Positions 3,776-37,699 of a DNA stretch of 64,000 nucleotides are shown here, one piece after another. Location: positions 124,001 to 188,000 of the forward strand of contig JASBUI010000006.1 in NCBI GenBank assembly GCA_030148005.1, read 5' to 3'. The notes beneath the pieces were generated by a model that was not told where the DNA came from, did no database searches, and was given only the letters and a program-made list of their open reading frames with translations. The DNA comes from Paracoccaceae bacterium (GTDB lineage: Bacteria; Pseudomonadota; Alphaproteobacteria; Rhodobacterales; Rhodobacteraceae). Each line of letters starts with the position of its first letter. Within the stretch, counting starts at the first letter, position 1. A program made the translations under genes and the position numbers.

Positions 3776-5385
3776 TGCACCAACTTCAACTGGTTGATCT
3801 TGGCGGCGATAGCGTTGAATGCCTCGGAAATCTCGACGCCCTTGACGTCAAAGAAATGCGCCGATGAGCTTGCACAATCCAAAAGGGTTGCATCGCCCTG
3901 ACCGTAGGTTTCCATCCCGATTGTGAAGACAAGGATACCCTTGGACTTAGCCGCCCCGCAAATCGCGGAAGAGCGCGCATTCTTGGTAGAGCCCGGAACA
4001 TATCCAAAGACCTGGTTCGCCCAATATGAGGATGAACCACCATCGGCGCGGGCCTTGAGGTAATAGGCCCAGTAGTTGACCGACATCAGGCTGAAGACGT
4101 CAGGATAGGTCAGTTGCACAGCATCCGATCCACCATCGGGGTAGGTGTAATACTTCTGGCTGCTCATGTGGTAATAGTCGTTGTAGGCCGCGCTGTACTG
4201 CGAATAGCGGTCGTCATAGGTGCCGCCGCCGTTGGCATCCAGGAACGTGTTTGAAAGCCCGCTTTTGTAGTTGTCTTTCAGGTAATACTGGCTTGTGTTC
4301 TGACCATCCGACATCACGACCAGAACTTTCAGGATGTTCTTGACGTCATAGTTCATCGGACGACCGGCAAAATCCGCGTGAACCTGGTTCTTTGCGATCT
4401 TGTCGGTAACGATGCTTTGGCTTGAGGGGTCAAGCAGGGCAGTCCCCCACTTGGTGCCAACGTCAATCGACGTGTTACCGCCCGCAACCAGCGCATCGAT
4501 AGCCGCCTTCAGGACGACCGGATCGTCCGACCATGGCAAAATCTCACGCGCGGCGTCGGGGTTGCAGACATAGTAGATGCTGTTGACCGGACGGGTGTAG
4601 GTCCATGGCGCGAAATGGCCGGTGCGTTGCAGGGCCTGCGTCGTGCTAAGCGCCGAGCTGTCGAAATCGGATGACTGGAAATCAACGCAGTTCGAATAGC
4701 TATGCTCATTCGAGACGTTGTAGTAATCCAGCAACCCTGCGCCGGCGTTGACCTGTGTCGCGAACGGAATGATCGAAATCGACACGTTCTTTTCAGCGGC
4801 CCCCACGGGGATGACGGCGTCAACGAAATCCTTGGCCGCCTTTTTAAGCAGGTTCAGCCGGTTGTTCGAGTTCATTGATCCTGACACGTCAAGAACCAGC
4901 GAAATTTCGACATCCATGATGCCTTCCATAGCGGCGCTTTGGGCGGGGGCGTCAATTGAGTTGACGCCAAGCATGTTCATGAACAGCGTATCGACCGTCC
5001 CGGTCAGGCTTGCGTCCACGCGGCGGTAGTTAAAGCCCTGATCCACGGTAACCGTGACGGGGTATTGCGACAGACCCGCCTTGGCGAAATAGTCGTCGAC
5101 AACCTGCTGCGCGGGCAGCGTCTGTTCTAGGTCCGCTGCGGCCAGAACCGCGCGGTCAACGGTGTACTGCAACTTGGCGCGCGTTGTTTCATGACGTATC
5201 GTGTCGACGGCAAAGCCGCCCACGATCATGATGATCACGAACAGAAACAGCGAAAAGATGACCAGACTGCCGCGTTCGTCTTTCTTGAAAAACACGGCAC
5301 GCCGCCGGATGCCTTCAATATAGGCAGGGAACTTGACTTTGGGGCGTGCTCTTCCACTTGCCTGGATCGGACCAAGATCGAACAT
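3772..5385 (-). CDS. TadG-like pilus assembly protein with VWA domain
   Basis: 'DERGSLVIFSLFLFVIIMIVGGFAVDTIRHETTRAKLQYTVDRAVLAAA' TadG N-terminus and MIDAS-like 'LVLDVSGSMN' VWA motif. Start taken at MFDLGPIQ; the ORF track extends to 5535. Confidence 0.82.
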   Translation of the reverse strand: MFDLGPIQASGRARPKVKFPAYIEGIRRRAVFFKKDERGSLVIFSLFLFVIIMIVGGFAVDTIRHETTRAKLQYTVDRAVLAAADLEQTLPAQQVVDDYFAKAGLSQYPVTVTVDQGFNYRRVDASLTGTVDTLFMNMLGVNSIDAPAQSAAMEGIMDVEISLVLDVSGSMNSNNRLNLLKKAAKDFVDAVIPVGAAEKNVSISIIPFATQVNAGAGLLDYYNVSNEHSYSNCVDFQSSDFDSSALSTTQALQRTGHFAPWTYTRPVNSIYYVCNPDAAREILPWSDDPVVLKAAIDALVAGGNTSIDVGTKWGTALLDPSSQSIVTDKIAKNQVHADFAGRPMNYDVKNILKVLVVMSDGQNTSQYYLKDNYKSGLSNTFLDANGGGTYDDRYSQYSAAYNDYYHMSSQKYYTYPDGGSDAVQLTYPDVFSLMSVNYWAYYLKARADGGSSSYWANQVFGYVPGSTKNARSSAICGAAKSKGILVFTIGMETYGQGDATLLDCASSSAHFFDVKGVEISEAFNAIAAKINQLKLVQ

Positions 5386-19947: not shown

Positions 19948-21053
19948 GCGCCGCCGATACCCGCTTTATGACGCTTGCGCTGTCCTTGGGACGGCGCGGG
20001 CTTGGCCGCACTTGGCCCAATCCGGCGGTCGGGGCGGTGATTGTGAAAGACGGGCGCATTGTCGGTCGCGGCTGGACCCAGCCGGGCGGACGCCCGCATG
20101 CCGAGGTTGTGGCGCTTGCTCAGGCGGGCAAGGCCGCGAAAGGCGCCACGCTTTACGTCACGCTTGAACCCTGTTCGCACGAAGGTAAATCGCCCCCCTG
20201 CGCCGATGCGATCGTTGCCGCCGGCATCGCGCGCGTTGTCTCTGCGATCGAAGATCCCGATCCACGCGTGTCAGGGCAGGGGCACGAAAGGCTTCGCCGT
20301 GCCGGCGTTTCGTTGACGATTGGGACCTGCGCCGATCAGGCCCGCGCCGATCACGCAGGGTTTCTGCTACGCCAAAAAGACGGACGCCCGTTTGTGACGC
20401 TCAAACTGGCAAGCTCTTTTGACGGCCGGATTGCCACCGGCGCCGGGGAAAGCCAGTGGATCACTGGCCCCGAGGCGCGGCGTATGGTTCACGCCCTGCG
20501 GGCCAGCCACGACGCCGTTCTGGTTGGCGGGGGAACCGCGCGCGCCGATGATCCGCTGCTGACGGTGCGGGGGCTTGGCATTCAGCATCAACCGGTGCGC
20601 ATCGTGGCCTCACGCCGCCTTAAACTGCCCGAAGAGGGGGCGATGGCGGCCAGTGCAGGCAAGCACCCGCTTTGGATAATGCATGGCACCAAGGCCGCTG
20701 CGGGCAAAAGGGCCTTGTGGGAGGCCAAGGGCGCGCGTTGCCTTGCCGTGCCTGTCGCCGATGCCGGCTATATCGATGCCGCCGCCATGCTGAAGGTCTT
20801 GGCAGGCGAGGGCATTACGCGCGTCTTTTGCGAAGGCGGCGGCGCGCTTGCGGCCTCTCTTTTGCAGGACGGTCTGGTGGATGAACTTGTCGGCTTTACC
20901 GCCGGGCTGGCGCTTGGGGCCGAGGGGCGCCCGTCTTTGGGGCCTATGGGGCTGGCGCGACTGGATGAGGCGCCGCGCTTTGACCTGATCGAGACGCGCG
21001 CGATCGGGGCGGACGTCATGCACCGCTGGCAAAGGCGCAAAGCGCAGCTCTAG
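19944..21053 (+). CDS. ribD: Bifunctional diaminohydroxyphosphoribosylaminopyrimidine deaminase / 5-amino-6-(5-phosphoribosylamino)uracil reductase
   Basis: '[37 protein letters not shown]', '[22 protein letters not shown]'. Confidence 0.97.
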
Positions 21054-23116
21054 CGCCAGAGATGGGCGAAGCTGGCAAAAACCCCCTGAAGCTTCGACAA
21101 GGCGCGATTGGCGCGCCCGGGGCGTAGAACCTCACCCGCCGCCAGACGTTCGGCGGCTGTTTCCGGCGGGGAGGGGCGGCCTGACACCGGATCAAAGTAG
21201 CGCGGGTATCCGATAAGCGTGGCATGGGCCAACTCGGCCAGCGTTGGGCGCGCGCGGCGCCGCTGAGGCGTCTCGCAAAGGTCCTTGGTCAGCCCCCATC
21301 CGGCATAAAACGGCGCGCCAAGGCATTTCACCTTCTTGCCGCGCAGCAGCGCTTCGAACCCGATAAGAGAGGTCATCGTCCAAACCTCATCCACCGCGTC
21401 GATTGCGCTATGCGCCGCGCCCCGGGTGATGACGTGATTGGCGTATTCCATAGCCGTCTCAACAGAAATGGCGCCGGGACGCAGGCCAGCTTCGACATCG
21501 GGGTGGGGTTTGTAGAAAATGAAGGCATCTGGATTGGCCGCGCGCGTGCGCTTCAAAAGCGCAAGGTTGCTGGCCACGTCGCAGCACCCTTTCAGGATAG
21601 AGGCGTCATCCTCAACCTGACCCGGCACCAGTATCCGCCGCCCCGGCGCCTGACTTGGCAGCGCGTCATCCGGCCCCAGATTGTACTTGGTCAGCCGCGC
21701 CTTGGTCAGCTTGCGGATCAACCGCTCGGCCCGGCGCTTTTCCCCCTCGGGCAAATCGGGCGAGGCGCTGATCAGTGTTTCAAGGCGGCTGGGGCGCGTG
21801 GGGTCATAGTAGATGCCCAAGTCATCCAGTACGAGCGACATTGGCGGGACAAGTTCGGCCCCAAGCCCGCGAGAGCGCAGAAAACCATCCTCGACCCGCA
21901 AAAGCGGCACATCGGCGGCCTTTGCCTTATCGCCAAGCCCCTCCGGCTCTTTCCCCGCCCAGACCAAAAGCGATCGCCCCTTGGCGCGGGCGCGCTCCAG
22001 CGCGCGCTCAGGATCGTTTTCAAAAATCAATCGCTTGGCCGAGCCAAAGTACTTTTGCAGGACCGGGCGCTTCCAGAGGCGCATGCCGATGGCAACATGC
22101 CCGGCGCTGTCCTGCCGGTGCGCGCGCAGCGTGGCGGCCAAAGCTTCGATCGCGTCCTCAAGCGTGCAAAGCCGGTCCCGGCAATGATCGTACCACTTGG
22201 GGTAAAGGATCATCGCCGCCAGAAAAAGCTGGGCCCGGGTCAGTCGGCGCATGCGCCGGGGAACGGGCCGCTCGTCTACTGTCAGGCCCCAGCCTGCATA
22301 GAATGGCTGACCAAAAACGCGCGGTTTGTGCCCGGCAAAAATAGCCTCGAACCCCATTTGCGAGGACACCGTGTAGACCGCGCGCGCGCCCTCCAAAAGC
22401 CGCCAGGGCGAAACCGGGCGATCATAAAGCGACACCCGCCCCGAGATATCGTTGTCGCCGAAATAGCCCGGCCGGTGGCCTGCCTGCGTTTCGGGATGTG
22501 TCTTTATCAGAACCTTCGCGCCGGGATGCTCTTCCTGCGCGAAAACCAGCATCTCACGGAAAAGCGCCTTTGTGCCGCCGCTGGCCAGAACGGCGGCGTC
22601 GTCGCGGGTCTGGTCGATGACCAGAACATAGCCCGGTTCAGGGCCCTCAAGTTCGGGGTCAAAGTCGTTGTACTTGGTCAGATGAAGCGCCCTGATCCGG
22701 TCGGACGCGGCCTTGGCCCGTGCCAGAAGGGCGGCGTCATCCAAGGGATGATTGTCAAGAAGCTGTTCTAGATCAGAAGGTTGCGATGGGTCAAAGTGCG
22801 GGCCTGAGCGGTCAAGGACAAGGCCGATGGGCGCATCGCCCGCGCGGCCCGTGCGCCGTGATCTTATGAACGCATCTTCCACGTAAAGGACCGGCGCGCC
22901 CCGCTTGCGCGCCGCCGCCTTGCCGCGCCCGGCGGTGGGGCTGTTGCCCCAGACGCCGACCCAGTCGTCCGGCGAAGGCAGGCCAAGGCGAGTGTCCCAG
23001 CCATCCAGCGAAAGGATGCGCCGCAATCTGCGCTGTGTCAGGAAGCCGCCGTTGAAAACGAAAAGACGCCGGCGAGGGGACCCGCCGGCATCCTTGTCAA
23101 TTCGGCCATCGGCCAT
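21050..23116 (-). CDS. Capsular polysaccharide biosynthesis protein, KpsC-like (two Capsule_synth-type domains)
   Basis: Internally repeated domain: 'VEDAFIRSRRTG...LVLDRSGPHFDPSQPSDLE' and 'VEDGFLRSRGLGAELVPPMSLVLDDLGIYYDPTRPSRLE'; both repeats carry 'GxPFYAGWGLT'. Confidence 0.92.
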   Translation of the reverse strand: MADGRIDKDAGGSPRRRLFVFNGGFLTQRRLRRILSLDGWDTRLGLPSPDDWVGVWGNSPTAGRGKAAARKRGAPVLYVEDAFIRSRRTGRAGDAPIGLVLDRSGPHFDPSQPSDLEQLLDNHPLDDAALLARAKAASDRIRALHLTKYNDFDPELEGPEPGYVLVIDQTRDDAAVLASGGTKALFREMLVFAQEEHPGAKVLIKTHPETQAGHRPGYFGDNDISGRVSLYDRPVSPWRLLEGARAVYTVSSQMGFEAIFAGHKPRVFGQPFYAGWGLTVDERPVPRRMRRLTRAQLFLAAMILYPKWYDHCRDRLCTLEDAIEALAATLRAHRQDSAGHVAIGMRLWKRPVLQKYFGSAKRLIFENDPERALERARAKGRSLLVWAGKEPEGLGDKAKAADVPLLRVEDGFLRSRGLGAELVPPMSLVLDDLGIYYDPTRPSRLETLISASPDLPEGEKRRAERLIRKLTKARLTKYNLGPDDALPSQAPGRRILVPGQVEDDASILKGCCDVASNLALLKRTRAANPDAFIFYKPHPDVEAGLRPGAISVETAMEYANHVITRGAAHSAIDAVDEVWTMTSLIGFEALLRGKKVKCLGAPFYAGWGLTKDLCETPQRRRARPTLAELAHATLIGYPRYFDPVSGRPSPPETAAERLAAGEVLRPGRANRALSKLQGVFASFAHLWR

Positions 23117-23123
23117 GATCCGG

Positions 23124-24257
23124 CTAGAGCCCGGAGATGGTCTTTAGGCTGTTTGCCGTTTGTGCCGGACCGGCAATGGCAGACAGGACCTTGTTGAACT
23201 GTGTATAGGGCGCTTCGGTGACGTAAACGGTGTCGCCGTCGCGAATTGCAAAGTCACGCGCCATGAACATCCCGTTCGGCTTTGTCAGGTCCAGAACATA
23301 GACCATGCGCTGAGCGCCTTGCAGGTCGGTGCGCCCCAGAACCTGATTGGCGATCTCGGCCGGTTCGTTGCGCAGAACGAAAACGCCGGTGGGATCGGCA
23401 AGGTTGGAGTTCAGACCGCCGACCGTTGCGATAGCTTCGATTGCCGAAAGTGTCTGGGTGCGAAAGTTGACGCGGTTCTGCGCGCCGGTTGCACCAAGCG
23501 CGGTAAAGGCGCGTGTGTCTTCCTCGACAAGGATGCGGTCGCCGCCGCGCAGGGCGATATCAAGCGATGGGTTCTCGTAAAGGTCCTGAAACTAGATCTT
23601 TCCGCGATGCTTGCCGCGGATGACCGTGATCTGCGCAACTTCAGGCGGTACTGCGATGCCACCGGCCTTGGCCAGCATTGACGAAAGGGTCCGTGTCGGC
23701 CGTTCGATCGGATAGACGCCCTGACCGCCGACCGTTCCTGTGATCGAAACGGTGGAACCATCGCCGGCAAGGCGACGCACGACGACCTGTGGATCGGGCG
23801 TTTGCGCCTCAAGCTTGGAGGTGATGATGCGGCGCAGCGCCTCGGGCGTGTTCCCGGCGGCGCGGATGCGACCTGCGTAGGGGACAAAGATGAACCCCGC
23901 GCCGTCAACCTGAACCTCGTCCAGAACCGTGGCGTTCTGGCCCGTTCCGGCCAAAAGCCCCTGATCCACGTTCTCCCAGACCGTCAGGCCAAGGGTGTCG
24001 CCCGGACGGATCGTATCCGACCCGATGACATGGGCGTTCTTGAATTCCTGCGAAAAGCCGAGTGCGGGCGTAACCGCCGTTGCCCGCGTGACGCGGTCAT
24101 TTACCGTTACGACAAAGGCATCGCCGTTTCTTTGGACCGACCCTTCAAAGATTTCCTTTTTCGTCGGACCTACACGCGGCAATCCGCACGACGACAAAAC
24201 AGCCGCCATGACCAAAAGGGCTGCGCCCTTGGCCCAGCGTGACTTGTTGATTTTCAC
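23124..24257 (-). pseudogene. Polysaccharide export protein (Wza/KpsD-like, SLBB) interrupted by an in-frame TAG at 23592-23594
   Basis: ORF 23592..24257 (lipoprotein-like N-terminus, 'GDTLGLTVWENVDQGLLAGTGQNATVLDEVQVDGAGFIFVPYAGRIRAAG') ends in TAG. The same frame continues without stops as 'FQDLYENPSLDIALRGGDRILVEEDTRAFTALGATGAQNRVNFRTQTLSAIEA...' to 23124. Confidence 0.85.
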
Positions 24258-24352: not shown

Positions 24353-25633
24353 TTACGTCACGACGCGCAGTTGTTGCCTTGGGGACGCATTCCCCAGTTT
24401 CAGCGCATCATATGGGTCTTCCGGCGCCAGCATCATGTCCACGATCTGGCGAAGTAGCTGCCTGCGTCCGCGTGATGAGTAAAAACCGCCGGCAATCTGG
24501 GAAGTTTCCAGAAGGTATCGGCGATAATCCTTGTACGCGCGGCTGTCCGGCCTTGTTGGCCGGGTGAAAAATTCGGGCAGGGGTTGCGTGGAAACGAACT
24601 CAGGCTTTGCATAGACTGCGTCACCAAACACCTTTAGGGGCAACCCCCGCCACAACACTTGCTGCGCGGCGGTCGAGTTAACCGTCACAGCGCTTCTTGC
24701 ATGGTCCAGAAGCTCGGCAAGTTTGCCGCCCCGGACGTAATGTACCCTGTCGCTGACACCCAGCTTGTCCGAGATGCGGCGAATTTCCTTCAGTATCTCG
24801 ACGCGCCCGTCTTCCAGTGGGTGGGCTTTGAAAACCAGATGATGATGCTGCGGCGCGCCTGCGGCAAACCCTTCCAGAACCAGCTCGAGAAACTCGGCGA
24901 TATCCTTGAAGGGGCTGTGCATCTTGAAGCTGCTGTCATGGGCCAGTTGCAACAGGACCAGATGATAGGGAAAGCCGCCGTGCTTGATCCGAAGCGTCGC
25001 AAGGATACGGGTCAGCGCGGTAAGGGGAAGCAGCGACAACCGTCTGACATACAAACGAAATTCTTGCGTGACCGTGATATCACGGTGCGGCTTGAAGTTG
25101 CGGAAGCGGCCATTTCGGAACATCACGAACCAGTGGTACAGCGCGCCATAGAACATGTGCTGGCGCATGTCGCCCCAATGGCCGGGCGTCTCTGGCATAT
25201 CCAGTTGCGACTGGCGCAGCGCCTCTTGCATCTGCGGGATGCTCATATCCATCAGGCGCGAGTTGCCGTTTGATCCACCACGCTCATACGTGACCCAATA
25301 GGGGCGCATGTAACCTTCTTCAAAAACGTGAACCGCAATTCCGCGCGCCTTGGCGATCGCAACGGCCTGCGCATGTATCGCGCGCGTGTCGCCGTAAAGT
25401 ACAATGTCGGTGATGGCCTTGTCCGCCACGATGCGTTCAAAGACCGAAGGCCAGGCGTCCGGGGTGTCAGTGAAGGGAATAAAGGTGTCGCGATTGCGCC
25501 AGAAGAAACGATCGCCCGCATTAAAGCCCACCCGCCACACGTTCGCACCCGCACGCTCCAGCATCTTTGACAGATGCCGGAAGAAGGGCCCGTGAGGCCC
25601 CTGCAGGAAAAGAAAGTTACGCGTGTCGTTCAT
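24353..25633 (-). CDS. Capsular polysaccharide synthesis/export protein, KpsS-like
   Basis: 'NFLFLQGPHGPFFRHLSKMLERAGANVWRVGFNAGDRFFW', 'VFEEGYMRPYWVTYERGGSNGNSRL', 'HPLEDGR...VNSTAAQQVLWRGLPLKVFGDAVY'. Confidence 0.92.
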   Translation of the reverse strand: MNDTRNFLFLQGPHGPFFRHLSKMLERAGANVWRVGFNAGDRFFWRNRDTFIPFTDTPDAWPSVFERIVADKAITDIVLYGDTRAIHAQAVAIAKARGIAVHVFEEGYMRPYWVTYERGGSNGNSRLMDMSIPQMQEALRQSQLDMPETPGHWGDMRQHMFYGALYHWFVMFRNGRFRNFKPHRDITVTQEFRLYVRRLSLLPLTALTRILATLRIKHGGFPYHLVLLQLAHDSSFKMHSPFKDIAEFLELVLEGFAAGAPQHHHLVFKAHPLEDGRVEILKEIRRISDKLGVSDRVHYVRGGKLAELLDHARSAVTVNSTAAQQVLWRGLPLKVFGDAVYAKPEFVSTQPLPEFFTRPTRPDSRAYKDYRRYLLETSQIAGGFYSSRGRRQLLRQIVDMMLAPEDPYDALKLGNASPRQQLRVVT

Positions 25634-34774: not shown

Positions 34775-35743
34775 ATGTCAGAACCAGTCAGATGGGGCAT
34801 CTTGGGCGCGGCCAATTTTGCCCGCCGGCACATGGCCCCCGCCATTCATGCCGCAGAAGGGGCAGAATTTACCGCCCTTGCGACCGGATCACCCGAAAAG
34901 GCCGCTTATTTTCAATCCTTTGCGCCGGGGTTGAAGGTTCACGGCACCTATGACGCACTTTTGGCCGACCCTTCGGTTGAGGCCGTCTATATCCCCCTTC
35001 CCAACCATCTTCATGTCGAATGGGCCAAAAAGGCGCTGCAGGCGGGCAAGCATGTCCTTTGCGAAAAGCCGATGGCGATGAAGGCCGAAGAGTTCGACGA
35101 CCTGATCGCGCTGCGTGATGAAACCGGGCTGCTTGCGGCAGAGGCCTATATGATCGTCCACCACCCGCAATGGCAGCGCGCCCGCGAACTGGTGCAGGGC
35201 GGCGCCATCGGCAAGCTGATCCATGTTGAAGGCGTGTTCACCTACAACAACGCCGAGGATAAGGCGAACATTCGCAACGACCCGGCAAAGGGCGGCGGCG
35301 GCATCCCCGACATTGGCGTCTACACCTATGGGGCGACGCGGTTTGTGACGGGTCAGGAACCACAGGAAATCACCCATGCCGACATTACCTGGGACAACGG
35401 CGTTGATGTCATTGCAAGGGTTTCGGCGCGGTTCTCGTCCTTCAGCGCCCATTGGCTGAACTCGATGCGCATGCACCCCATTCAGGACATGACCTTTCAC
35501 GGTGACACCGGGCTCTTGCGCCTGACGGCCCCGTTCAACCCGCAGGTTTTCGGCGAAGCCCGGATCGAGCTGATGAGCGATGGAAAAAGTGTGGTGGAAC
35601 GTTTTCCGGCGGCCAATCACTACAAGCTTCAGGTCGAAGCTTTCGGCCGTTCGGTGCGCGGCGGCGCGCCTTACCCTTGCCCACTAGAGTTCTCGCGCGG
35701 CACGCAAGCGATGATCGACATGGTTTTTGAGGCGGCCGGTTGA
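34775..35743 (+). CDS. Gfo/Idh/MocA family oxidoreductase
   Basis: 'VRWGILGAANFARRHMAPAIHAAEGAEFTALATGSPEKA', 'VEAVYIPLPNHLHVEWAKKALQAGKHVLCEKPMAM'. Confidence 0.95.
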   Translation: MSEPVRWGILGAANFARRHMAPAIHAAEGAEFTALATGSPEKAAYFQSFAPGLKVHGTYDALLADPSVEAVYIPLPNHLHVEWAKKALQAGKHVLCEKPMAMKAEEFDDLIALRDETGLLAAEAYMIVHHPQWQRARELVQGGAIGKLIHVEGVFTYNNAEDKANIRNDPAKGGGGIPDIGVYTYGATRFVTGQEPQEITHADITWDNGVDVIARVSARFSSFSAHWLNSMRMHPIQDMTFHGDTGLLRLTAPFNPQVFGEARIELMSDGKSVVERFPAANHYKLQVEAFGRSVRGGAPYPCPLEFSRGTQAMIDMVFEAAG

Positions 35744-36678
35744 CCGAATTCACCTTCCATCTACCGCCCTCGGCCCTTGCAGGCAACGGCGCGGGGATGA
35801 AACCGTTTTACAAGACGCTTACGTGCGGTCTGGCCGATGCTGGCCACAGCGTCGATCTTGTTGAGCATGATCGCGAAACTGCCCTTGATCTGACCGAGGC
35901 CGGTGATCGCTTTCACATCTTCGACCACGGCCAGATCCGTCACCCGCGCGCACTGAACGCCGGGATCGCCTATGTCTATCCGTTCTGGAACCTTGACCCT
36001 TGGGGGATCCGGGCCTTTTCGTCCATTGCCGCCAAAAAGTTTGACCCGGCCCTTGTTCCGCGCAAGCCTGCGGTTGAGTTTTTCGGGCGCCTTCAGCACC
36101 GGCTGGTCAAGAAACGCGCCTCTAGGTACCCTCAGCCGCCAGAGCACGCCCGCGATCTGCCCAAGGACGCGATCGCCATCTTCCTGCAAAGCGAGTTTCA
36201 CCGCGATGTCGGAGAGACCTGTTACCTTGAGCGCGCAGAGATGGTTCAAGCGGTGCTTGAGGCCGCAGGCGATCAGCCCGTCGTCATCAAACCGCATCCG
36301 CGTGATCTGGAACCTCAGACCTACGGGTGGCTGGAAACGCTGCTTGTGGAATGGCCCAACCTGACGGTCACCGATGCCAACATCCATGACGTGCTGGCCA
36401 GCGCGGCAAAGGTCGTCACGATCAACTCTGCCGTCGGGATCGAGGCGCAACTGCACCGCGTTCCGGTCATTCTTTGCGGGCACGCCGATTTCCTGCATGT
36501 CTGCCACACCGCCAAGGACACCAAATCACTGACCGAACTAGTTGGTGCCGATATGGGGCCACAGCCGGTCGAGGCATTTCTTTACTGGTATTTCAAAGAA
36601 AACTGCCTTGCCGCAGGTGATCCCGATCTTTTGCAGGCTTTTCTGGACCGGGTGGCGCAAACCGGCTTTGCGCGGTAA
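35740..36678 (+). CDS. Hypothetical protein, distant capsule-synthesis/glycosyltransferase-like (KpsC/KpsS-like C-terminal motif)
   Basis: 'AIFLQSEFHRD...VVIKPHPRDLEPQTYG...LTVTDANIHDVLASAAKVVTINSAVGIEAQLHRVPVILCGHADF'; starts within the upstream gene's stop (ATGA-type overlap). Confidence 0.65.
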   Translation: MTEFTFHLPPSALAGNGAGMKPFYKTLTCGLADAGHSVDLVEHDRETALDLTEAGDRFHIFDHGQIRHPRALNAGIAYVYPFWNLDPWGIRAFSSIAAKKFDPALVPRKPAVEFFGRLQHRLVKKRASRYPQPPEHARDLPKDAIAIFLQSEFHRDVGETCYLERAEMVQAVLEAAGDQPVVIKPHPRDLEPQTYGWLETLLVEWPNLTVTDANIHDVLASAAKVVTINSAVGIEAQLHRVPVILCGHADFLHVCHTAKDTKSLTELVGADMGPQPVEAFLYWYFKENCLAAGDPDLLQAFLDRVAQTGFAR

Positions 36679-36718: not shown

Positions 36719-37699
36719 ATGGCAGGCGAGGTGATCTTTCACATCCCCGAGCATATGCGGCGAAACTTTTCGCGCCGAACCAAGAAACATTTCTACAAGC
36801 GCCTTTGGGACGATCTGAACAAATGCGGCGTTACCGTTCAGATCCGCAACTACGAAGAACGCCACTACCGCCGGATTGATCCCGCGGACGGCGACCTGCA
36901 CTTTGTCAACAACGGCAACCTTGTTCAGCCAAATGTCCTGAACACCGCCATCGCCTATCTAGACCGATTTTGGCAGGTCGATGCGAAGGGTGTGCTTTGT
37001 GACAGCTCCATCGCCGAGATGGAGTTTGACCCCAAGCGGATCAGCGGGCCAGCCTCTTGGAAGTTCTTTCAAACCCTGCGCGAAGACTACGCCCAAGCGC
37101 GCAACTCGCGGTATCAACAGCCGCGCGATGTGCAACAAATTCAGCCCGGCGTCATCGCGGTCTTTCTTCAGGGCGATAGCCACCTGACCGACCGCGCCCG
37201 CCGCTGGTCCACGCCGGACATGATCCGGTCCGTCGCCCAAGGGGCAGGCGACCGCCCGATTGTCGTCAAACCCCACCCGCTGAAAGTGGCGCCCGAAGAC
37301 TTACTGGCCGTGCATGACCTTGCCGCTTCTGGCGTTGATATCACCCTCACAGAGGCGAATGTGCACGATATTCTGGCGCAGGCATCGGCGACGGTTTCCA
37401 TCGGCTCTGCCTGCTCGTTCGAGGGCTTTCTGCATAAGAAACCCGCAATCCTTTACGGGCGCAGTGACTTTCATCACTTCGCCGAAACGGTGTCGAATCT
37501 GGACGGCTTCGCCGAGGCTTTTGAGCGCGCCCAGACGCGCAAGCGCGGTTATTCGCGCTATGTCTACTGGTTTCTCAAAGAGCACTGCATCTGGACGCAA
37601 AGCCGCTTTTTCTTTGGCAAGGTAAAGCAGCGCATGATCGCCCAAGGGTTTGATCCCGAAAGGCTTATCCCCGCCAAGGCAGGCTCGACCGCGCGCTGA
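36719..37699 (+). CDS. Paralog of the preceding gene; capsule-synthesis/glycosyltransferase-like
   Basis: 'AVFLQGDSHLTDR...IVVKPHPLKVAPEDLL...ITLTEANVHDILAQASATVSIGSACSFEGFLHKKPAILYGRSDFHHF'; start at MAGEVIFHIPEHMRRNF. Confidence 0.65.
   Translation: MAGEVIFHIPEHMRRNFSRRTKKHFYKRLWDDLNKCGVTVQIRNYEERHYRRIDPADGDLHFVNNGNLVQPNVLNTAIAYLDRFWQVDAKGVLCDSSIAEMEFDPKRISGPASWKFFQTLREDYAQARNSRYQQPRDVQQIQPGVIAVFLQGDSHLTDRARRWSTPDMIRSVAQGAGDRPIVVKPHPLKVAPEDLLAVHDLAASGVDITLTEANVHDILAQASATVSIGSACSFEGFLHKKPAILYGRSDFHHFAETVSNLDGFAEAFERAQTRKRGYSRYVYWFLKEHCIWTQSRFFFGKVKQRMIAQGFDPERLIPAKAGSTAR

Follow-up and report, generated by a model that had tools for sequence, protein, structure and literature searches.

The capsule locus in the window, the 64,000-nucleotide stretch of DNA analysed here (contig JASBUI010000006.1, positions 124,001 to 188,000), raises the question of whether two adjacent reading frames between kpsS-like and kpsC-like genes are separate genes or the two parts of a single polysaccharide export (OPX) gene. 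If they are one gene, the TAG codon that parts them could be a genuine inactivating mutation, a sequence error, or a codon that is still read. The initial annotation had described a capsule export gene split by a single in-frame amber codon. The features concerned are listed in the order of transcription.

24353..25633, minus strand: KpsS-like capsule gene, upstream of the OPX gene and in the same direction (PF05159, 6e-51; NF050054 below its cut-off)
23592..24257, minus strand: predicted OPX gene, 5′ part, with the lipoprotein signal, the Poly_export domain and the opening portion of the first SLBB domain, closed by the internal TAG
23592..23594, minus strand: internal amber codon TAG, codon 222 of 377; TGG in the congener
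23124..23591, minus strand: predicted OPX gene, 3′ part, in the same frame, with an SLBB domain, the C-terminal tail and the natural stop TAG
21050..23116, minus strand: KpsC-like capsule gene, whose start lies 7 bases beyond the OPX gene (PF05159, 2e-79)

The minus-strand frame begins with a GTG at 24257 and continues to 23124 as 221 aa, the TAG at 23594-23592, a further 155 aa and a second TAG, and it is open throughout except at the internal codon, as originally described. The 5′ part includes a lipoprotein signal, VLSSCG, recognized by eye, and Poly_export (PF02563; 57.9 bits, cut-off 28), the N-terminal domain characteristic of the OPX family. A partial SLBB_2 match before the stop scores 22.9 bits, below the cut-off of 27, and the SLBB_2 match after the stop scores 32.5 bits against the same cut-off, which provides the SLBB domain of the family and bears out the assignment of the 3′ part to an SLBB-domain protein. 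When the internal stop is ignored, residues 83-362 of the protein can be aligned with residues 67-338 of Wza from E. coli (PDB 2J58; E 9e-25). The codon-usage score of the 3′ part is +0.34 per codon and is positive in this frame alone of six. In shuffled window sequence, open frames of at least 155 codons were rare yet present (251/41666), and the case for a single gene therefore stands on homology and not on length. Since the two parts share a family, orthologs align over their full length through the stop and the coding score is positive, a single reading frame is supported beyond chance, and on sequence grounds 24257-23124 is one polysaccharide export (OPX/Wza-type) gene split by a single in-frame TAG. 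The two fragments serve as a warning against annotating such pieces as separate genes.

Like the OPX proteins Wza and VexA, the product predicted from the window has a lipoprotein signal, Poly_export and two SLBB regions, and the model for VexA, from the Vi capsule, matches the part after the stop. Unlike them, the gene is interrupted at codon 222, and the model scores fall below the NCBIfam cut-offs. Wza_C (PF18412), which marks the Wza-like OPX Class 1, has no match in the second part, though the Wza alignment reaches residue 362. GfcC (PF06251), which marks the KpsD-like Class 2, has no match in either part, and the protein is not assigned to that class.

The genetic context is that of a capsule locus. 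The flanking KpsS-like and KpsC-like genes are both open and both match PF05159, in agreement with the initial view that they are intact, and the order kpsS-opx-kpsC was found in 67/67 loci of about 10 kb tested. No second OPX gene was found in the assembly from which the window comes, which is 76% complete. Another contig of this assembly carries, in order, an ABC-transporter ATPase gene (KpsT-like), a KpsE-like gene (188 bits against TIGR01010, below the cut-off of 437.5) and a DAHP-synthetase-family gene (KdsA-like), the names KpsT and KdsA being taken from position, Pfam class and judgement. KpsC and KpsS are tied to ABC-transporter-dependent capsules with a Kdo linker. The gene set fits a capsule of this type, in which the channel gene is the interrupted part. 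The window also holds, roughly 10 kb away from this operon, two adjacent plus-strand genes, 35740-36678 and 36722-37699, with Capsule_synth (PF05159) matches of 36.5 and 23.5 bits (cut-off 20).

Among the copies compared, the stop is confined to this one genome, at a column that is otherwise almost invariant. The one congener compared has an uninterrupted OPX ortholog, 86% identical, with TGG at this column, and 132 further ortholog copies (28 from relatives, 80 named GTDB-genome records and 24 from a family search, sets that may overlap) have Trp in 131 cases, Phe in one and a stop in none. Every Trp codon checked was TGG. The family search found the gene in 347/397 genomes, and among the matches listed an internal stop was present only in the genome of the window. 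The proposed history, a change of TGG to TAG, thus agrees with the orthologs, none of which ends at the position of the internal stop with a separate second gene behind it. A nonsense pseudogene would show an in-frame stop in place of an orthologous sense codon, as seen here with TAG against TGG or Trp, and would also require that living cells carry the stop and lose the product. The sole copy with Phe (TTC) belongs to Tateyamaria omphalii (NZ_JAHVHT010000001.1) and indicates that Trp at this column is not strictly required. A different single in-frame stop was observed in the OPX gene of Loktanella sp. MAG bin.44 (JAIBDT010000013.1, positions 4404-4406), which falls on the lipobox cysteine (query residue 24) and leaves the remaining frame open. 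This could be another natural null allele or, again, an error.

Comparison with the congener (NG86) gave dN 0.11 and dS 1.0 for the part before the stop, and dN 0.06 and dS 0.96 for the part after it. When amino-acid differences were polarised with the 132 copies, 9/15 before the stop had arisen in the window lineage, whereas after the stop the congener accounted for all 10 and the window lineage for none. The absence of window-lineage changes after the stop implies that the stop is very recent, that it is an error, or that the product is still made. By a rough neutral calculation, the stop can have existed for at most about 3% of the period since the two lineages diverged. An old pseudogene was ruled out, since the sequence after the stop shows no decay.

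Two rival explanations are far less likely. One holds that there are two genes, the first for a short OPX protein and the second for an SLBB protein with its own start, each part having a domain match of its own. This is barely credible, as the first in-frame ATG, GTG or TTG after the stop is the ATG at 23306, 95 codons on (the initial annotation had likewise seen no restart before this point), the cut falls inside the first SLBB domain, and relatives have one uninterrupted gene. A natural two-gene split was rejected on the lack of a restart codon and of any relative so arranged. The other holds that a suppressor tRNA or inefficient termination lets ribosomes pass the amber codon, which would yield some full-length channel and sustain low or variable capsule export. 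In its favour, the frame behind the stop is fully conserved and none of the 10 polarisable changes falls on the window lineage; a suppressor tRNA could also lie in the missing ∼24% of the genome. Against this, TAG terminates 19/57 predicted genes of the window, and the OPX gene itself ends in TAG. It is a usual gene end here and not a sense codon, and reassignment of TAG was ruled out. The suggested search for an amber suppressor came back empty: none of the 29 tRNAs found by a tRNA family search of the 76% complete assembly has a CTA anticodon, and a search combining the anticodon-loop pattern and the T-arm gave 4 matches, none of them a tRNA. An Rfam search returned tRNA-His only. No relative has a stop at that codon, and readthrough is very improbable. 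Among the options first offered, loss of function and sequence error are favoured, suppression found no support in the incomplete genome, and phase variation is without a visible basis, as a substitution has occurred and no repeat tract is formed by the bases around it, AAGATCTAGTTTC.

The remaining choice is between a real allele and an error, and most likely the stop is one or the other, an ordinary loss-of-function mutation or an assembly error, rather than a new mechanism. The assembly (2.54 Mb in 42 contigs, 76% complete) is the only one of the species examined and is probably a metagenome bin. The TAG could then stem from a mistake in base calling or in the consensus, or from a minority base that entered it, with an intact gene in the living population. 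Consistent with this are the nature of the assembly, the single substitution in an otherwise undecayed gene, and the different one-base stop in the OPX gene of the Loktanella draft, itself built from metagenome data. The lack of decay after the stop would equally be expected from an error, a point against the null-allele reading. Loss of the last capsule export step while earlier steps are intact can be harmful (PMC8259999), which would select against fixation of an OPX null allele. When 206 kb of the same contig were scanned for stops, and for stops only, that separate two coding stretches of one frame, 8 cases were flagged. In seven of these a start codon lies no more than 12 codons on, the pattern seen where two genes adjoin, and the OPX stop is the only one without a start in the 40 codons tested. 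The result speaks against generally poor sequence, the OPX stop being alone of its kind among those flagged. The scan counts against the error explanation to that extent but does not speak against a single error. The weights given to a null allele, an error and readthrough are judgements. An error is possible but rather unlikely, and the reading that is probably correct is a recent, ordinary nonsense null allele, TGG to TAG, in the OPX gene.

If the null allele is real, translation would be expected to stop once 221 residues have been made, leaving a lipoprotein that retains Poly_export and a fragment of one SLBB domain. The truncation would remove the second SLBB domain and the C-terminal tail, the counterpart of the membrane-reaching part of Wza, and in Wza truncation of the C-terminal helix alone abolishes function (PMC9603273). 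No complete channel would be assembled, and the capsule would be predicted not to reach the surface. As KpsC starts 7 bases after the natural OPX end, the 465 bases left untranslated before kpsC may also lower KpsC by polarity. The strain or subpopulation would then probably be capsule-negative.

Capsule loss occurs in nature under phage attack or where a capsule is unneeded, and natural inactivation of capsule loci is common. In Klebsiella pneumoniae, genes are missing or pseudogenized in 9% of capsule loci, and nonsense point mutations account for 111 recorded events (PMC8259999). If real, the window allele would resemble them as a natural inactivation of a capsule gene, nonsense changes included, but the capsule type and organism are different, and many genomes were available there and one draft assembly here. 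The related bacterium Rhodobacter capsulatus 37b4 naturally has no capsule, and with it lacks the receptor that the gene transfer agent needs for binding (PMC10218006). Strain 37b4 is a case of natural capsule loss but is without the biosynthesis gene cluster, whereas the window differs by one changed codon in one export gene. If real, the stop would be a natural capsule-null allele in the sole OPX copy found in this genome; beyond that it is an ordinary lesion of a known kind. Such an allele could help to examine whether losing the capsule protects Rhodobacteraceae against phages, and whether it blocks uptake from gene transfer agents.
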